Below, piece by piece: positions 41,014 to 63,128 of a DNA stretch of 64,000 nt. Position numbers and translations under genes: made by a program. This stretch comes from Clostridiales bacterium (lineage in GTDB: Bacteria > Bacillota > Clostridia > Christensenellales > Pumilibacteraceae), in NCBI GenBank assembly GCA_029066805.1, contig JAIEFT010000040.1, forward strand, positions 1-64,000, given 5' to 3'. Position 1 is the first letter of the stretch. Each line of letters begins with the position of its first letter. The notes under the pieces were generated by a model. It searched no databases, was not told the origin of the DNA, and saw only the letters and a program-made list of their open reading frames with translations.

Positions 41014-41162
41014 AAAGCTCTCCTTGATTAGCAAATATTATAGTACTTATAAGCGGGTGCAGTATAACATAAATCTATTCTCGATGTCAATTATATGTTT
41101 CATTAAACCGGCGAATAAGCCAAAACTTAACGGAAATGATTTAACGAATTTTCACGTATAAC

Positions 41163-41191
41163 TTGATTTTATCCGACAACTGTGTTACAAT
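41163..41191 (+). promoter_or_regulatory. Sigma-A-type promoter of leader RNA copy A
   Basis: TTGATT (41163-41168), 17-bp spacer, TACAAT (41186-41191). Confidence 0.75.
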
Positions 41192-41195
41192 AGCG

Positions 41196-41382
41196 TTGCA
41201 ACACCACCCTCTATATACTTTCCAAAAAATATGCCATAGGCGTATAATATTTTTATGTGTTCTGTTTGAGATTATCGGTAGTTACACCGTTCCATCTCGG
41301 ACAGGACGCAAGGAAAGTTCGGGTGATGTTGCAATCATGGAGCGGTGTGCTATGTGCCGTTCCGAAAGGAGCGGCATTTTTT
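41196..41382 (+). ncRNA. Family-1 structured leader RNA, copy A
   Basis: Closing stem TTGCAACACCACCC / GGGTGATGTTGCAA, inner ACTTTCC/GGAAAGT, TTCTGTTTGAGAT/ATCTCGGACAGGA and CGGT/ACCG; terminator GCCGTTCC-GAAA-GGAGCGGC-ATTTTTT. Confidence 0.7.
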
Positions 41383-41475
41383 ATGGCAAAAAAATCGACA
41401 ACGACAGACTTTTTCAGGCGACCGATTATCGAGTGATAGATAAAATAAACACAGCAAACTTTTATCCGATATAAC

Positions 41476-41504
41476 TTGATTTTATCCGACAACTGTGGTA
41501 CAAT
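41476..41504 (+). promoter_or_regulatory. Sigma-A-type promoter of leader RNA copy B
   Basis: TTGATT (41476-41481), 17-bp spacer, TACAAT (41499-41504). Confidence 0.75.
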
Positions 41505-41508
41505 AACA

Positions 41509-41690
41509 TTGCAACACCATTCAAATACTAAGTCTCCAAATATGCGCCTATTAGTGTATTATATTTTTTGGTCAGTCTAAAAATCGGTAGTTACCGTTTC
41601 AAATCGACTTGACCGAAATGGAGAGTTCGAATGGTGTTGCAGCCATGGAACGGTATGCTATATGCCGTTCCGCAAGGGACGGCATTTTTT
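41509..41690 (+). ncRNA. Family-1 structured leader RNA, copy B
   Basis: Closing stem TTGCAACACCATTC / GAATGGTGTTGCA with compensatory changes relative to copy A; conserved ATCGGTAGTTACCG loop; terminator GCCGTTCC-GCAA-GGGACGGC-ATTTTTT abutting ATG 41691. Confidence 0.72.
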
Positions 41691-42440
41691 ATGGCAATGG
41701 AAATCGACGGCAATAAAATTTTTCAGGCGGCCGAAGCAATTATTCTGAATATGCTTGTCAATATTTATGCGGTCGAACGCGTGGCGTTCGGTTACGAAAA
41801 GCCCGGAGAGCAAGTCCCGATCGATTTGTATCTTCAGCATTTACAGTTAGGTTTAAATTACGATCGGCATTTGCGCAAAAGTATTCCCGGCGTATACATA
41901 GACGAAAACGAGCATATAAGCACGGAATATGACTACACCGAATATGTGCACGACTTGTTTGTTTACCAAATGGAGAGCATATTCTTCCAAGCGCCTAAGG
42001 ACGTACGCTTGGAGCGTGACGGCAAAGAAATCCCGTTGCTTCCCCGTTTCCGTGATTACCTGTTCGGAACTATGCCGTTATTTACCGAGGTGTTAAACGT
42101 AAAAGTCGAGTATAACGCCTTTGACGTTATCCCGACAGACAGAGAGGCGCGCTCGACCGAATACAGCAAATGGGCGAGGTTCGTCACCGCGATTTTGCTC
42201 AAGCCGTTAAGGTCTGGCGGCAAAATCAATCGATACGTCAAAGATTTTACTTCTGCGCCGCACTATATTAGTGGGCTTATAGAAAAGAACGGCAAAAATT
42301 TCTATCTAAAGCCTGTTAATATCAATAGCTACGAATATATCTTTGCATTGTTTTCTCTAATGCAATTTAAAAATGCCGAAAACAATAAACTATTAGAACT
42401 GAAAATGCTCGAATGGCAACGCCGACACGATCAGGAATAG
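41691..42440 (+). CDS. Protein of unknown function downstream of family-1 leader RNA
   Basis: MAMEIDGNKIFQAAEAIILNMLVNIYAVERVAFGYEKPGEQVPIDLYLQHLQLGLNYDRH...; intact ORF starting directly at the terminator U-tract; no family recognised. Confidence 0.7.
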   Translation: MAMEIDGNKIFQAAEAIILNMLVNIYAVERVAFGYEKPGEQVPIDLYLQHLQLGLNYDRHLRKSIPGVYIDENEHISTEYDYTEYVHDLFVYQMESIFFQAPKDVRLERDGKEIPLLPRFRDYLFGTMPLFTEVLNVKVEYNAFDVIPTDREARSTEYSKWARFVTAILLKPLRSGGKINRYVKDFTSAPHYISGLIEKNGKNFYLKPVNINSYEYIFALFSLMQFKNAENNKLLELKMLEWQRRHDQE

Positions 42441-52064: not shown

Positions 52065-53345
52065 CTACTGTTTAATAGCAATATAGAAAAATACCCCCAA
52101 AGCAATGAAGTATTTCCCTTGTAAATAGCATTCTTTCATTTCACTATGCTTTTGCGAAACCACTTTTAAGAGATCAAACGCCTCATAATTATCAAAATAT
52201 GATGCGCTATCTGCTGCCCATAATTCCGGGTTGAAATATAAGTCCCATAATTCCTCTTTGTATTGTTCATCAAAATCAATTGAGGATATTGTAGGCGATA
52301 ATAATTTAATATTATTAAACCCTGCGTTTTTCAAAATTAATGGTAATTTTCTAGCCATTTTGCGATCGCCTGATTCCTTTGAATGTTCCCAAATATAAAA
52401 GCAGTCCTCAAAATATTTGGAGTGCGGATAAGCTATATTGACGCCGTCATCCTCATCCTGAATAAAAATTGTTCCATTGGGATTCAAAAGCATATATAAA
52501 TTTTTTATCAAATCATCAATTTGTCCTATATGTAACAATACAGCGGAAATATGAATTATGTCAAATCCCATAACTCTAAACCTTTGCATTTGAAAAAAAA
52601 TATCTCGAAAAAAATTACTTGATGTCACATCACACTGAATAAAGGCATGATTATCATGCGAATGTAATTTATTAGCTTCTTCAATTGCATTTTGATTATT
52701 ATCAACACCTAATAAAAAGCTGTATTTACGGCCATCTAAACGCATAATAATATTATCGCCATTATCGCAGCCCACATCTAAAACCGAAGGATTATCATAA
52801 TTTGAAAATATTTCGTCTAAATATTTTTTTGCATATTCATTAAAGAATTTATTTTGCGATTTTAAACGAATTCTTTCCGCTTCTTTTTCAGTTGAATAAG
52901 TGCTTTTACTATTCTCATCATAAGTCGGCATCAAATTTGCTTGCTCAAAAATTGCAAGCACCAAACTTTCATAATCATCAAATTTATCTTCATAAAGCCA
53001 ATTAAGACTCCCTAAAAACAATTCAATAATTTCTTGATTACTTTCATTTAATTCTTCTATCACAACTGGAATAATAGCATAATCGCTATTTTTTTTCTGT
53101 TGAGAAATCGCTCTTGCTATCTCATTTCTAACCATAAGAGAAGAAACGCTTGCATTAGATAAAAAAACAACAAAATTTTTCGAATTATTTATTCCATTAT
53201 TAATTTCTTCTATGAAGTGTTGCTTACTATCTCTAAGCTGAAACCAACATGTAGGTCCAAAAAATTTAATCGTAGAAACAATCTTTTCTACTTTATCTTT
53301 ATTTGCATTAGAAAACGAAATAAAAATATCTCTAATATCGTCCAT
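52065..53345 (-). CDS. TIR domain fused to class I SAM-dependent methyltransferase
   Basis: TIR: IFISFSNANKDKVEKIVSTIKFFGPTCWFQLRDSKQHFIEEINNGINNSKNFVVFLSNASVSSLMVRNEIARAI; MTase: PSVLDVGCDNGDNIIMRLDGRKYSFLLGVDNNQNAIEEA...GFDIIHISAVLLHIGQIDDLIKNLYMLLNPNGTIFIQDED. Confidence 0.85.
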   Translation of the reverse strand: MDDIRDIFISFSNANKDKVEKIVSTIKFFGPTCWFQLRDSKQHFIEEINNGINNSKNFVVFLSNASVSSLMVRNEIARAISQQKKNSDYAIIPVVIEELNESNQEIIELFLGSLNWLYEDKFDDYESLVLAIFEQANLMPTYDENSKSTYSTEKEAERIRLKSQNKFFNEYAKKYLDEIFSNYDNPSVLDVGCDNGDNIIMRLDGRKYSFLLGVDNNQNAIEEANKLHSHDNHAFIQCDVTSSNFFRDIFFQMQRFRVMGFDIIHISAVLLHIGQIDDLIKNLYMLLNPNGTIFIQDEDDGVNIAYPHSKYFEDCFYIWEHSKESGDRKMARKLPLILKNAGFNNIKLLSPTISSIDFDEQYKEELWDLYFNPELWAADSASYFDNYEAFDLLKVVSQKHSEMKECYLQGKYFIALGVFFYIAIKQ

Positions 53346-53835: not shown

Positions 53836-54046
53836 AAAAAATGCGCTAGCCAGAGCTAACGCACGAAAAACGCAAACTCCGACTGTCGCCAAACAAGTTT
53901 ATATGCAGTACGGGTAATATCGTCCACATAAATGGATTTGCATTTTTACCAAATTCAAAATATGGACGAGACGAAAAAAGGATATACCTATTTTGTTGAA
54001 ATAAAAAAGCCCGTACTCCTATTTAGGGCATATAACTTGTTTGGCA
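53836..54046 (-). ncRNA. Family-2 structured leader RNA, copy C
   Basis: Closing stem GCCAAACAAGTTATATGC / GCATATaAACTTGTTTGGC, P2 AGTACGGG/CCCGTACT, mini-hairpin CCTAAATAGG, conserved GACAGTCGGAGTTTGCGTTTTTCGTGCGTTAGC, terminator TGCGTTAGC-TCTG-GCTAGCGCA-TTTTTT. Confidence 0.75.
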
Positions 54047-54051
54047 TAATT

Positions 54052-56864: not shown

Positions 56865-59800
56865 TTAATTTTCGATTACATCACCATCATCGCAATGAAC
56901 TGTATAATGGTAAAGACCTGCGTCCCAATCAAGCTCCTTTGATATAGCGTTCCATTGCGCCTTAGTTCCCTTGAAAGTTATGCTTGTAATACTGCTACTC
57001 CAAAACGCATGGCTCTTAATACTAGTTACACTACTAGGAATTGTGATGTTCGTTAGTCCATTACAATCATCGAAAGTGCCACTCTCAATGCTCGTTATGC
57101 CGTTCTGGAGTACGATGCTTGTAAGTCCAGAGCAACCAGAGAATGCATATTCGGCGATTGAAGTCACGCTGCTTGGAATTATTAGACTTGTAAGTCCAGT
57201 ACAATTAAAGAATGCATATTCGGCGATTGAAGTCACGCTGCCGTCATTAGGTATTATACTCGTTTTACAGCCTTTTATCATTTTTCTTGCTTCCGTTTCT
57301 ATAATACAATTCCCATCACTATGATATTTACTATTTTCATTTGATATTGTTATTTCTGAAATTTCACCACAGTCTCGAAATGCTAATCTATCAATACTTG
57401 TCACACCACTACCGATTGTTATATTTGAAAGCCCTGTACACCCAGAGAATTGATTTTCTCTAATATTCTTAAGACCGTTACCGATTATTATATTCTTAAG
57501 CCCTGTGCAATCATCAAATGCCCAAGCGGAAATATACGTCACACTATCAGGAATCACTATACTTGTAAGTCCAGTGCAGCCAGAGAATGCCCAGCTATTT
57601 ATGTCCGTCACGCTTCCATCTGTAGGTATTATACTTGTTTTACATCCTGCTATCAATGTCTTAGTTTTTGTTTCAATTAAACAATTCTTATCGCTATGAT
57701 ACTTACTATTTCCACTTTGTACTATTATTTCTGAAAGTCCTATGCATTTGCGAAACGCATTGTCAATACTTGTCGCTCCAGTGCCAATTTTAACACTAGT
57801 AAGTTTAGCGCAATTATAGAATGCATTATGACCAATACTTTTTACATTGTTTGGAATTATGATACTTGTAAGTTCAACACAATTATAGAATGCCCATTTT
57901 TCTATGCTTGTTACGCCACTACCGATTGTTATATTCTTTAGTTTAGAACAATCGTAGAATGTAAATGGAGCAATACTTGTTACGCTGTTCGGAATCGTTA
58001 TATTCGTCAGCTCAGAACAACCCCAAAACGCGCTCTGTTTAATGTTAACTATGCTATTGGGGATTGCGATACTTGTAAGCCCAGTGCAACCGGAAAACGC
58101 AGACTCGCCGATGCTTGTCACGCTTCCATCTGTGGGAATTATACTCGTTTTACAACCAAATACCAATGTTTTGCTTTGCTTATCCACTAAACAGTTGCCT
58201 TGACTCTTATACTTGCTATTCCCACTTGATACCGTTATGCTCGTAAGACCACTGCACTTCTCGAATGCCAAAGCGGAAATACTCGTCACACTGTCGGGTA
58301 TTGTGATACTTGTTAAAGCTTGACAATTACTAAATGTATAATTGCCTATGCTCGTGCCGCTTGTTATAACAACTTTTTTTAAATTTGAGTTTGTTATATA
58401 TCGTGCCGCCATTATGGGTATTGTTGCTTCTTCAATAGCGCAACCGTTGAATGCATAGTCTCCTATACTCGTCACACTATCAGGTATTGTGATGCTTATT
58501 AATCCAGTACATTCGTAGAATGCATAAGAACCGATACTCGTCATATTACCTGAAAGTATAACCCTTTGTAGCGAACTCGGTATAACTTCTCTATTAGCCC
58601 AATAAACACTTGTACTAAATATATAGCCAAAGATTGTGTTTTCAGTGCCGTCTACATTCGCACCCACGAATGGTAATGTTATGCTTTCAAGAGAATTACA
58701 ACTACCGACCGCGCATATCCCGATACTCGTCACGCTGTTTGGTATCGTTATGCTTGTAAGTCTAGCACAACCATAAAACGCATAAGACCCGATTGAAGTT
58801 ACGCCATCAGGAATTGTTATGTTTGTAAGATTAGCACAACCATAGAATGTATATGATTCGATTGAGTTCAATTTATTGGATATCATTATGCTTGTAATTT
58901 CAGTACAACCATAAAATGCATAAGAGCCTATTGAAGTTACGCTATTCGGGATAGTTACATTTGTAAGTCCAGCGCAACCATAAAATGCATAAGAGCCTAT
59001 TGAAGTTACGCTATTCGGGATAATAAGATTATTTATTACAGATTTACCGTTAATCACCAAGTCTTTGTTTGTTATGCCACAGCGCATAAGACTATTTAAT
59101 CCATCTATTGCGCACCAATTCGCTATATTCCCTGTATAAATTATGCGCGTAATATCATTACAACCGGAAAATGCAGACTCGCCGATATTTGTCACACTGC
59201 TGGGAATTGTTATGCTCGTAAGTGCACGGCACCCGTAAAAAGCACTATTTTCAATACTTGTTATACTGTCGGAAATTGTTATATTATTTAGGTTAGTACA
59301 ATATTCAAAAGCCCCGTAACCTATATTTGTGCCGCTTGTTATTGTTACTGTTTTTAGAGCTGAATTCCTTATATATCTTGCCGCGATTGCGGGTATAGAT
59401 GCCGTTTCAATAGGGCAGTCATCGAACGCATAATCTCCAATGCTTGTCACGCTATCTGGAATATCTATGCTCGATAAGCTACGACAATGATGGAATGCAT
59501 CTTGTCCAATACTCGTCAAATTACTTGGGATTGTTATACTTGTAAGTCCATCACAATAATAGAATGCACCATATAGAATATTCCCACCCGTAATCGTTAC
59601 ATGTTTTAAAGATGTCGGTATATAATAATAGCTATATGTAGTATAGCTCGTACTACTACCGTAATAGTATTGACATGTTGACTTGGCATTTACAAATTGA
59701 TTTGTTCCGAATATATAACCAAACGGATACTGATAGGTATCACGTGAGGTTTTATATGACCCACCTACAAAAGGCAGTGTAATGGTTGTAAGAGAGCGGC

Positions 59801-62800
59801 AACCGTTAAACGCACCTTCGTTGATTTTTGTGACATATGAAGGCACATTTAGCTGCGTAACTAGTTGATTTTTTACGCCGGTTATAGTTAGCGTTGTTTG
59901 CGTAGCAATATAAGTAAATGCAGATAACTGTGTGTCAACTTGGAATTTCGCCGTATAAGTAATATTTTCATGTGGCATTAAAAAAGTAAATTCAATATTC
60001 TCAGAAACTTTTTGAGATCCGTTATACCAACCAACAAAGTTCGAACCTAAGTTCGATGTTGCCTTAATGGTAGTACTTTGACCAACTATATATGTATCTT
60101 GTAAAGATGTAACAGTGCCTGCGGTATCGTCGCTACTTTCAATTACAACTTTACACCATCTTGCCGTATAAGTAGCATCTTTGTTCGGCATAGCGAACAT
60201 ATAGTTCATATTTTTTGTTAGTTCGTATTCACCATCATACCAACCAACCCATGTGTATCCGGGCTTTGTCGTTGCTATCAATGTGACATTTCTTCCTGCC
60301 GTAATTCCTCCGCTAGCAGGCAAATACAGATTCCCACCATCGAGTGGTTTTTTGCAACTTAGGTTTAGAGTTGTCCAACGTATCGCTGTAGAACTTGTTT
60401 GCGTTAGTCCAACGTAATACAAATTACCTGCTGTTACATTATATTTTATGTCAAACTCATAGTGTGAGAAACTCCCCCCATAATACATTGATGGTCCACT
60501 TGCAAGGCGATTTTTAAAACTATCAAATAAATATCCGCTTACAGAATATTGACCTATACCACTTATTGTTATCGTTTCATCAATTAAAGGCACGAACGCA
60601 TAATATTCATATATTCCATACCCATTATATTCATAGTCAGCATACCCTGTAATACTTGTTCCATCCAACGGCAGTACGCTTCCAGAATAAGTGAGCCATT
60701 TTGCGTATAATGTAATATTACTTTCTACCCCTTGTGAAAAGTCATATGGGATTCCTACGCATCCGGCGTTATCGTACCAACCGCCAAATAAATAGCCAGA
60801 ACGCGAAGGAGTTGCAGGATATTTTAAGCTAATATCTTTCGTTATCGTTTGCGACGCTATTGTACCAATTCCGCCGTTGAGATCAAAGTTAACAGTATAA
60901 GAAGATACGCCGTAATCGCGAGTAACTGTTCCGCCTTCTTCACTGTTTACAGTAAGAGTGTACATATTCCATTTCGCAGTATAGGTTATGCTATTACTCG
61001 GCATTATAAATGTGTAGTTTAAATCACTTGTAAGTTTTTGTTCTCCATTATACCAGCCAAGCCATGTATATCCTCTACTAGTACTTGCTGAAATAGTAAC
61101 ACTCTCTCCGACTTTATAGCTCTGTTTAGTTGTAGATACCGCGCCTGCGGAATTGTTATTACATGCAAGCGTAAGAGAGTACATTTTCTTAACTATATTA
61201 TTTTCGCATTCGTTCGAAATAAAGAAATCGGCGTTGCTATCATACGCACAAACGGTAAATTGTCCTATTCCGTTATTGTCGTAAATTGGACTATCGTTAT
61301 TTATTACATAGCTTGTATCCGTTACGGTTATGTAAGTGTTATGATGTTTTATTCTATATGTGTTTGCATGTGCGACAGCTAACCAAGATACAGTATATGT
61401 ACAGTCAGAAATATTTTCCGTAATCGCAATTGTAGGAGTTTTAAGCCTTTTTTTGCTTACTTCTAAATTTAATGCCGAAGAAGAGCTCCATCCATCTCGT
61501 GTAGGAGTTACTGAAACGGTATAATCTCCAGCCTCGATATCGGATATGTCATAAGACGTATTTTCAATCGTTGCTTTAAGAGTACCGTTAATTCGCACAT
61601 CGTACGCAGTTGCATTTTTTACTGCATCCCAAGAGAGAATGGATGTAGATGTATTGAAATACGGGTTTACAGGCGTTAGCATATGATGTGAATAATTTTT
61701 TTCAGTCCACATTGAATTTAACGTTGTTTCGCCATCACCGTTGGCACGAATTTTAACGGTGTAATACCCCGCGGCTATATCATTTGGGAAAGACCAGCTT
61801 GTTGTCATAAGGTTTTCTTCGGATTGCTTTGTAGTATCCGAATAAACTTCAATTTTATAACCTTGTGCACCAGTTATAATATCCCAACTGAATATACCAT
61901 TTTGAGAAATGCTAACAATCGGCGAATATAGCTGAGAATCGTCTGTGCGCTTTTGTACCCATTCCGCATAAAGAAACAGTCCAGATTGCGTTATGCGTTG
62001 TGATGTATCGAACTTCTCAGACAGTATGTAACTTCCGTCCGCAGTCTGTCCGTCGCTTAAATACCAACCATTGAACACATATCCCGAACGTGACGGAATA
62101 TATGTTATCAAACCATTTTGGGTAGTCTTTATAATGTTTGTTGAGCCTGGATAATTATGAATAAAAGTAACATCGTATTCGGTTACGACTATTCTCGGTA
62201 TTTCAGTTATATCTGTTTTCTCGGAACAGCGGGTGCAATGGTGAGATTTGCTTCCGGAGTGCTCCGTTGTGGCTTCTATATCAATCGACCATTCGGTTCT
62301 CCAATCGTGATTTAGCGCATTTATAATGATGCTGTTTTTATCTGTAATCTCATGTTTTGCTTCGGAATCGGAAAACCATTTGCCGCAACCGCAAGTGTAG
62401 TATGCGTTGTTGCCAGCTTCCGTGCAACTTGCCGATTTTGCTGACACGGGTGTCGTAGAATGCGTGTGACCGATAGGCTCTGCTAATACATAATTACATA
62501 CGGTACAAACTTGCGGAGAGATAGTAGTTGCAGCCGCGCCGGGGATATGGTTTGCTTCGTCTTTCTTCTCATTGCATACAGTACAGACGTGCCAATGCTT
62601 TGTGGCGTTGTTGCTCCATTTAGTGGACCAAATATGCGCATGACCATCCGTGGATTTTACGGCAGAGCATTTTGTGCAGTTATTATTTGCTCCCCAAATG
62701 TGCGTTTCATTGATCACGTCGGGTTTATCACAACCTTCCACAGAGCAATGACCGTCATGCGTACCATTGCCGTTATCTATCCATTGATAATTATGAGTAT

Positions 62801-62903
62801 GCGATGTTGCCTCAGGAGCTTTACTCGCGCAAGCTGAAAGCCCGAATGCAAGCATCAAGCAACTTGCAATCGCCAATAGAACAACAAGAATCTTCTTTTT
62901 CAT
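56865..62903 (-). CDS. Giant (~2012 aa) BspA-like leucine-rich-repeat (LRR_5) lipoprotein with CxxC repeat modules, Fn3-like regions and InlB/Listeria-Bacteroides repeats
   Basis: MKKKILVVLLAIASCLMLAFGLSACASKAPE lipobox; CxxC modules near N-terminus; YTVNFDLNGGIGTIASQTITKDISLKYPATPSRSGYLFGGWYDNAG; >15 copies of the LTSITIPNSVTSIGSYAFYGCAG type. Confidence 0.92.
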   Translation of the reverse strand: MKKKILVVLLAIASCLMLAFGLSACASKAPEATSHTHNYQWIDNGNGTHDGHCSVEGCDKPDVINETHIWGANNNCTKCSAVKSTDGHAHIWSTKWSNNATKHWHVCTVCNEKKDEANHIPGAAATTISPQVCTVCNYVLAEPIGHTHSTTPVSAKSASCTEAGNNAYYTCGCGKWFSDSEAKHEITDKNSIIINALNHDWRTEWSIDIEATTEHSGSKSHHCTRCSEKTDITEIPRIVVTEYDVTFIHNYPGSTNIIKTTQNGLITYIPSRSGYVFNGWYLSDGQTADGSYILSEKFDTSQRITQSGLFLYAEWVQKRTDDSQLYSPIVSISQNGIFSWDIITGAQGYKIEVYSDTTKQSEENLMTTSWSFPNDIAAGYYTVKIRANGDGETTLNSMWTEKNYSHHMLTPVNPYFNTSTSILSWDAVKNATAYDVRINGTLKATIENTSYDISDIEAGDYTVSVTPTRDGWSSSSALNLEVSKKRLKTPTIAITENISDCTYTVSWLAVAHANTYRIKHHNTYITVTDTSYVINNDSPIYDNNGIGQFTVCAYDSNADFFISNECENNIVKKMYSLTLACNNNSAGAVSTTKQSYKVGESVTISASTSRGYTWLGWYNGEQKLTSDLNYTFIMPSNSITYTAKWNMYTLTVNSEEGGTVTRDYGVSSYTVNFDLNGGIGTIASQTITKDISLKYPATPSRSGYLFGGWYDNAGCVGIPYDFSQGVESNITLYAKWLTYSGSVLPLDGTSITGYADYEYNGYGIYEYYAFVPLIDETITISGIGQYSVSGYLFDSFKNRLASGPSMYYGGSFSHYEFDIKYNVTAGNLYYVGLTQTSSTAIRWTTLNLSCKKPLDGGNLYLPASGGITAGRNVTLIATTKPGYTWVGWYDGEYELTKNMNYMFAMPNKDATYTARWCKVVIESSDDTAGTVTSLQDTYIVGQSTTIKATSNLGSNFVGWYNGSQKVSENIEFTFLMPHENITYTAKFQVDTQLSAFTYIATQTTLTITGVKNQLVTQLNVPSYVTKINEGAFNGCRSLTTITLPFVGGSYKTSRDTYQYPFGYIFGTNQFVNAKSTCQYYYGSSTSYTTYSYYYIPTSLKHVTITGGNILYGAFYYCDGLTSITIPSNLTSIGQDAFHHCRSLSSIDIPDSVTSIGDYAFDDCPIETASIPAIAARYIRNSALKTVTITSGTNIGYGAFEYCTNLNNITISDSITSIENSAFYGCRALTSITIPSSVTNIGESAFSGCNDITRIIYTGNIANWCAIDGLNSLMRCGITNKDLVINGKSVINNLIIPNSVTSIGSYAFYGCAGLTNVTIPNSVTSIGSYAFYGCTEITSIMISNKLNSIESYTFYGCANLTNITIPDGVTSIGSYAFYGCARLTSITIPNSVTSIGICAVGSCNSLESITLPFVGANVDGTENTIFGYIFSTSVYWANREVIPSSLQRVILSGNMTSIGSYAFYECTGLISITIPDSVTSIGDYAFNGCAIEEATIPIMAARYITNSNLKKVVITSGTSIGNYTFSNCQALTSITIPDSVTSISALAFEKCSGLTSITVSSGNSKYKSQGNCLVDKQSKTLVFGCKTSIIPTDGSVTSIGESAFSGCTGLTSIAIPNSIVNIKQSAFWGCSELTNITIPNSVTSIAPFTFYDCSKLKNITIGSGVTSIEKWAFYNCVELTSIIIPNNVKSIGHNAFYNCAKLTSVKIGTGATSIDNAFRKCIGLSEIIVQSGNSKYHSDKNCLIETKTKTLIAGCKTSIIPTDGSVTDINSWAFSGCTGLTSIVIPDSVTYISAWAFDDCTGLKNIIIGNGLKNIRENQFSGCTGLSNITIGSGVTSIDRLAFRDCGEISEITISNENSKYHSDGNCIIETEARKMIKGCKTSIIPNDGSVTSIAEYAFFNCTGLTSLIIPSSVTSIAEYAFSGCSGLTSIVLQNGITSIESGTFDDCNGLTNITIPSSVTSIKSHAFWSSSITSITFKGTKAQWNAISKELDWDAGLYHYTVHCDDGDVIEN

Positions 62904-62919
62904 AAAATCCTCCGCAAAC

Positions 62920-63122
62920 AAAAAAGTGCGCCAGCCGAGGCTAACGCACGAAAAACGCAAACTCCGACTGTCGCCAAACATTCACTATGCAGTACAGGAC
63001 ACATTCCAATACACACATATGGAATTTGCATTTTTACCAAATTCTATTTGTGATATATTGAAATGCTATGAAAAAACAAAAAGCCCCGTACTCCTAATTA
63101 GGGGATATAGTGAATGTTTGGC
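62920..63122 (-). ncRNA. Family-2 structured leader RNA, copy D
   Basis: Closing stem GCCAAACATTCACTAT / ATAGTGAATGTTTGGC perfect 16 bp (covaries with copy C), P2 AGTACGGG/TCCTGTACT, mini-hairpin CCTAATTAGG, identical 33-nt GACAGTCGGAGTTTGCGTTTTTCGTGCGTTAGC, terminator before the LRR ORF. Confidence 0.78.
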
Positions 63123-63128
63123 ATAATC

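Follow-up and report, generated by a model that had tools for sequence, protein, structure and literature searches.

A class of leader RNAs in Clostridia with an apical loop complementary to the antiterminator arm: a putative transcription attenuator

The stretch of DNA analysed here (the window, 64,000 nt) carries two diverged tandem units, at 41163-41389 and 41476-41697, and the locus raises the question of what a duplicated promoter, rod-like RNA and terminator do next to an ORF of no recognised family. A first-pass annotation had described this duplication, each unit with a TTGATT-N17-TACAAT promoter, and both units were found with that organization. The features are listed below.

41163 to 41191, plus strand: promoter of leader copy 1, TTGATT-N17-TACAAT, extended -10
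41195 to 41382, plus strand: leader RNA copy 1 (w1), 172.4 bits to covariance model R1
41196 to 41209 (5' strand) and 41321 to 41334 (3' strand), plus strand: closing stem P1 of copy 1, from the fold and the P1 covariation of 86 members
41276 to 41293, plus strand: conserved loop of copy 1 (segment 2), CGGTAGTTACACCGTTCC, complementary to the antiterminator 5' arm (duplex -26.2 kcal/mol; swap tests)
41339 to 41353, plus strand: antiterminator 5' arm and loop of copy 1 (segment 3), GGAGCGGTGTGCTAT
41354 to 41363, plus strand: antiterminator 3' arm of copy 1, the same as the terminator 5' arm (segment 4)
41354 to 41382, plus strand: intrinsic terminator of copy 1; its 3' arm (segment 5) holds AAGGAG at 41366-41371
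41383 to 41425, plus strand: frameshifted remnant of the P0001 ORF start, 3' of copy 1, from direct repeat D3 and reading of the sequence
41476 to 41504, plus strand: promoter of leader copy 2, TTGATT-N17-TACAAT, extended -10
41508 to 41690, plus strand: leader RNA copy 2 (w2), 162.9 bits to model R1
41509 to 41522 with 41629 to 41641, plus strand: closing stem P1 of copy 2
41585 to 41600, plus strand: conserved loop of copy 2 (segment 2), CGGTAGTTACCGTTTC
41647 to 41661, plus strand: antiterminator 5' arm and loop of copy 2 (segment 3), GGAACGGTATGCTAT
41662 to 41690, plus strand: antiterminator 3' arm and terminator of copy 2, with SD-like AAGGGA at 41674-41679 in the 3' arm
41691 to 42440, plus strand: ORF P0001, 249 aa, its ATG directly after the copy 2 terminator U-run

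The two units share direct repeats of 78 nt (85%), 50 nt (94%) and 34 nt (79%) at an offset of 308-313 nt. Alignment of the w1 and w2 RNAs gives 139 identities, 38 mismatches and 17 gapped positions, a considerable drift, and the structure has therefore outlasted the divergence. Each RNA folds closed from its first bases and is followed by the terminator, called at 41354-41377 in copy 1 and at 41662-41685 in copy 2; the single-strand fold energy is -79.2 kcal/mol for copy 1 (z -8.5) and -66.2 kcal/mol for copy 2 (z -6.5), with 0 of 200 shuffles as good in either case. The compensatory differences that had been claimed for the closing stems are present (CACCACCC:GGGTGATG versus CACCATTC:GAATGGTG), as is, in both copies, the proposed 10-bp hairpin GGARCGGURU/RUGCCGUUCC, which overlaps the terminator and would compete with it. 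The only SD-like sequence near the ATG (AAGGAG or AAGGGA) lies inside the terminator 3' arm, again as described earlier. A match of R1 to the minus strand at 41502-41643 was rejected as a third unit, being the mirror of the nearly palindromic P1.

The description of the duplicate as standing in front of an ORF holds for copy 2, which abuts the ORF at 41691; copy 1 retains all leader elements, yet it is followed only by the frameshifted remnant and has no intact ORF of its own. P0001 matched no Pfam, PHROG, NCBIfam or credible PADLOC family, and its single-sequence AlphaFold model (pLDDT 35.7) was useless. Among 61 related genomes its relatives occur within the genus only, and a scan of named genomes returned none.

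Homologues of the RNA were sought with two covariance models, R1, built from seven members, and R2, built from a shorter branch. Within the genus, 13 of 20 genomes gave an R1 match. R2 detected leaders in 34 of 74 genomes of the family, in 48 of 248 of the order and in 49 of 342 sampled across the class Clostridia; it also recovered window copies 1 and 2 at 46.0 and 31.5 bits. Strong R1 matches precede P0001-type ORFs or an unrelated SLOG-like ORF (TCSCFGHSDVDI...), and weaker ones led to the shorter branch, whose leaders measure about 137 nt and stand in front of genes for secreted proteins and lipoproteins. The same genome holds a third copy on another contig (G000:C46, L005), preceding a P0001 paralogue that is 67% identical; this copy adjoins, divergently, a purE-purC-purM-purN-like cluster named from translations. 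At L050, three tRNA genes are clustered beside the leader on the opposite strand. Six viral contigs (L222-L227) carry the leader before unassigned proteins of about 345 aa. A pattern scan of named records gave 24 matches, 20 of which contain the full RNA by the model and are labelled Clostridia, Bacillota or uncultured bacteria, including Pumilibacter intestinalis; the four matches that do not (Pseudoxanthomonas, a micrarchaeon, Chitinophagaceae and Terriglobia) are probably due to chance.

Searching the whole window against Rfam 15 at the gathering threshold gave one tRNA and no leader match, a search around the locus at E<=10 gave nothing credible, and the leaders had no match either at 9 loci drawn from other branches or at 11 loci of class-level or viral origin. 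Searches of open-access literature returned no description of the class, which may still exist elsewhere, and lipoproteins did not come up when the text of two large ncRNA surveys was searched. These leaders thus appear to be a large undescribed RNA class in Clostridia; what the first-pass annotation called Family 1 is one branch of an RNA family that spans the class. That annotation had proposed a covariance-model search for homologues; the search returned a large family with covariation, and Rfam 15 holds no assignment for it, so that no refuting result named in advance has appeared.

Inspection of about 150 members revealed a common anatomy, consisting of a sigma-70 promoter, the stem P1 from the 5' end of the RNA, and an antiterminator hairpin overlapping the terminator, with the ORF typically 0-60 nt beyond. 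The upstream consensus in 122 members, TTGAC - 17 nt - TGnTATAAT, lies at a fixed distance and outside all RNA models; 106 of the 122 passed a 9-of-12 promoter test, against 13 expected from shuffles. P1 has the consensus UGC[N]ACACAA:UUGUGU[N]GCA, then ACAAU, and position N covaries (GC 39, CG 22, UA 21, AU 2, of 86) beside conserved neighbours, which hints that the sequence of P1 may be recognised by something. Across 86 aligned members, 35 of the 36 pairs of P1, P1b and the antiterminator show double-sided changes (0 of 500 shuffles), with 732 double-change cells versus 219 when shuffled; the covariation score of 0.652, versus 0.066-0.096 with slid partners, is biased upwards in size, as the alignment was fitted to the tested structure. 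In 15 close members, 18 of 31 pairs changed on both sides. The motif UUUCGCAU(U)AC, 3' of the loop and outside the described pairings, is common to several branches. A leader peptide starting from the AUG in P1 was considered and dropped, many members having UUG, UUAC or UCG instead.

The conserved apical loop (GGUAGUnAYACCGUUCC at this locus) had been recognised in both copies, whereas its complementarity to the antiterminator 5' arm had been overlooked. In w1, GGUAGUUACACCGUUCC faces GGAGCGGUGUGCUAU; the corresponding loop and arm are GGUAAAAAUGCAAAUUCC and GGAGUUUGCGUUUUUCG in branch C, GCCAAUUAGUACUUC and GGAGUGUACUGUUGG in branch B, and GGUAGAGAUGCAUCUAUUUCGC and GCGGAAUUGAGUAUUUUUAC in branch D. 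This pairing is absent from both R1 and R2. Because the MAFFT/CM alignment misregisters loop against arm across branches, swap tests were used in place of a column-wise pseudoknot count. The duplex of each loop with its own segment 3 averaged -18.4 in 93 members versus -13.7 ± 0.3 with swapped partners, and -18.6 kcal/mol versus -13.0 ± 0.4 in 57 non-redundant members, energies computed without pseudoknot geometry, so that a long loop:segment-3 helix could be partly impossible beside P3. The same held within branch A (-21.2 versus -17.6), branch B (-17.1 versus -14.2) and branch D (-20.6 versus -15.8), each with 0 of 5000 permutations; the within-branch and non-redundant versions control in part for shared ancestry, and in branches C and B' the nearly invariant loops leave the test uninformative. 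Reversed or shuffled loop regions gave about -12.5, and 50 members collected after the rule had been noticed gave a mean of -18.6 kcal/mol. The loop duplex covers the antiterminator 5' arm, with the antiterminator 3' arm serving as the terminator 5' arm, in 84 of 90 members; mean energies are -18.4 for the loop duplex, -16.8 for the terminator and -13.2 for the antiterminator. In many members the loop is itself partly paired in a small hairpin (segment 1:2). The predicted loop:antiterminator pairing gives segment 3 a second, exclusive partner, and this changes the earlier interpretation.

As in transcription attenuators, promoter, leader, intrinsic terminator and gene follow one another on one strand, and a conserved alternative structure excludes the terminator. 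The attenuator logic proposed earlier, apart from its putative sensing of a ligand or protein, is strongly supported by the covariation, the fixed promoter and the antiterminator/terminator overlap of the homologues. Building on the promoter, P1, this overlap, the loop:segment-3 complementarity, the covariation and the distribution, all documented at the level of sequence, we consider that the leader is probably a cis-acting transcription attenuator working as a relay of alternative pairings. RNA polymerase would start at the P1 5' strand, and the RNA would close into a rod presenting the loop (segment 2). Segment 3 could then pair back to the loop as a pseudoknot or forward to segment 4. Pairing with the loop would leave segment 4 free for segment 5, forming the intrinsic terminator (OFF) and, at this locus, also hiding the Shine-Dalgarno sequence; 3:4 pairing would destroy the terminator and free the Shine-Dalgarno sequence (ON). 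A protein, small molecule or other RNA that bound or held the loop would switch the gene on. The summed stabilities favour OFF, so that transcription would probably end short of the gene by default; this default state, the trigger as such and the way it acts are what we infer, and a default-OFF switch with a postulated trigger is only half a mechanism. Where the start codon touches or overlaps the terminator U-run and the SD lies in the 3' arm, as is the case for P0001 and a number of SLOG-like genes, the switch would gate transcription together with translation. In other families of the order, SLOG-like genes at L191, L194, L180 and L196 have a TTG start in or right after the terminator U-run and AAGGAG inside the terminator arm, like the window's family.

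Several known systems resemble this arrangement in part. The trp-type attenuators likewise have neighbouring segments with exclusive pairings (1:2, 2:3, 3:4) and an intrinsic terminator at the end, whereas the present leaders have no conserved leader peptide (an ATG occurs in the P1 5' strand of some members only), their segment 2 is the loop of a closed rod, making 2:3 a pseudoknot, and the genes 3' of them are not biosynthetic. In pT181-type antisense attenuators, which act in copy-number control, a loop situated upstream in the leader can base-pair with the stretches on which terminator formation depends, as it can here; in contrast, no antisense transcript or plasmid replication gene was seen at these leaders, which are chromosomal, with many loci per genome and differing loop sequences. 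Antisense attenuators are the subject of PMC3753616. T-box riboswitches share the long leader with an antiterminator/terminator end before Firmicutes genes, whereas our leaders have no Rfam match, no conserved T-box UGGN and genes unrelated to amino acids; the T-box was rejected for lack of a covariance-model match and because TGGAACGG of w2 becomes CCACGCGG in the C46 copy and AAAGGGACGG in G013. Cobalamin-type riboswitches with kissing loops also control a terminator by pairing a loop to the expression platform, whereas the loop of these leaders pairs over 10-15 bp, more than a short kissing contact would, and no Rfam match, ligand or pathway accompanies it. 6S RNA was set aside on structure, genes and the lack of a covariance-model match.

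To the earlier question of whether homologues always precede the same protein family, the answer is no, the leaders being found before P0001-type, SLOG-like, BspA-type lipoprotein, TIR and other genes. When the ORFs downstream of 121 leaders were assigned by a simple rule, 46 encoded lipobox proteins, 23 had another N-terminal hydrophobic segment, 8 had a zinc ribbon and the remainder were mixed; about half of the downstream genes encode lipoproteins or secreted proteins, and phage genes also occur. Pfam searches on examples gave BspA-type LRR, TIR plus methyltransferase, GIY-YIG (T5orf172) and phosphotransferase-like kinase domains, among others. The SLOG label derives from sub-threshold Pfam YpsA/SLOG matches of three relatives (best E 0.00057), and these proteins have no credible PADLOC match. 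The downstream genes follow no common pathway and look like accessory genes. Within the window, two further leaders belong to branch C.

53836 to 54048, minus strand: branch C leader, before a 157-aa ORF and then a TIR plus methyltransferase gene
62921 to 63125, minus strand: branch C leader, before the gene for a BspA-type LRR lipoprotein (about 2010 aa)

The first is followed by a TIR and methyltransferase fusion at 52065-53345 on the minus strand (TIR_2 4.8e-19, ThsB_TIR 2.7e-6), which with the 157-aa ORF possibly forms a defence-type operon; the very large lipoprotein gene behind the second occupies 56865-62981 on the minus strand.

This diversity bears on the reading of the leader as a metabolite riboswitch, in which the P1-P2-P3 rod would be the aptamer and a small molecule would steer the loop:segment-3 pairing. 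We regard it as unlikely. In its favour are the modular build of rod and expression platform, unpaired segments that individual branches conserve (UAUUUUU 3' of P2 in branch A, for example) and a P1 kept in sequence as well as pairing. Against it, genes for BspA lipoproteins, SLOG-like, TIR-methyltransferase, GIY-YIG and kinase-like proteins and phage genes share no pathway, the interior between P1b and the loop differs in length and sequence between branches, and most of the strong conservation is explained by pairings.

The terminated leaders might instead be the product, stable trans-acting RNAs or decoys of about 140-190 nt, with readthrough incidental and copy 1 regulating copy 2. The intact, ORF-less copy 1 fits this, two further lineages (L196, G224:C8; L197, G171:C2) likewise have tandem pairs in which no intact ORF follows the upstream unit, and the copy 1 loop pairs better with copy 2 segment 3 than copy 2's own loop does (-22.6 versus -18.5), so that action in trans is possible. 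However, in 86 of 90 members the terminator arm is complementary to the antiterminator arm, which a free RNA would not need, and in genes of two unrelated protein families the start codon directly adjoins the terminator; as the principal function we find it improbable.

Equally doubtful is an attenuator lacking a sensor, in which kinetic competition alone would set a low or cell-to-cell variable readthrough of surface proteins, as in bet-hedging. The many BspA-type surface lipoproteins downstream, the lack of a common pathway and the fact that no trigger was found agree with it, whereas the conservation of P1 sequence beyond pairing suggests recognition. A type III toxin-antitoxin-like system, with repeated RNA antitoxins upstream of a toxin such as a ToxN-like endoribonuclease and a terminator setting the RNA:mRNA ratio, would account for the tandem arrangement of RNAs and for a terminator in front of a small protein of no known family, and is very improbable given units about 310 nt apart with their own promoter and terminator instead of short head-to-tail repeats, the same RNA before lipoproteins, SLOG-like and TIR genes, and the lack of a credible PADLOC match for P0001 and the SLOG-like proteins.

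The attenuator reading may extend, tentatively, to a Clostridia-wide class of switches. A portable promoter-leader cassette would hold accessory genes (surface BspA lipoproteins, SLOG, TIR, phage) off through the loop:antiterminator pseudoknot, one trans factor, a protein or RNA reading P1 or the loop, would activate the regulon, and leaders released at the terminator might act on one another in trans by way of their loops. With a strict cut-off, about one in seven of the sampled Clostridia genomes has one or more of these leaders, and many of those genomes have several, yet Rfam 15 lacks the family. The hosts are mostly uncultured gut and termite bacteria, which are hard to study; the anatomy of the leader offers a directly testable mechanism, and a handle on the control of surface proteins and some defence-like genes.
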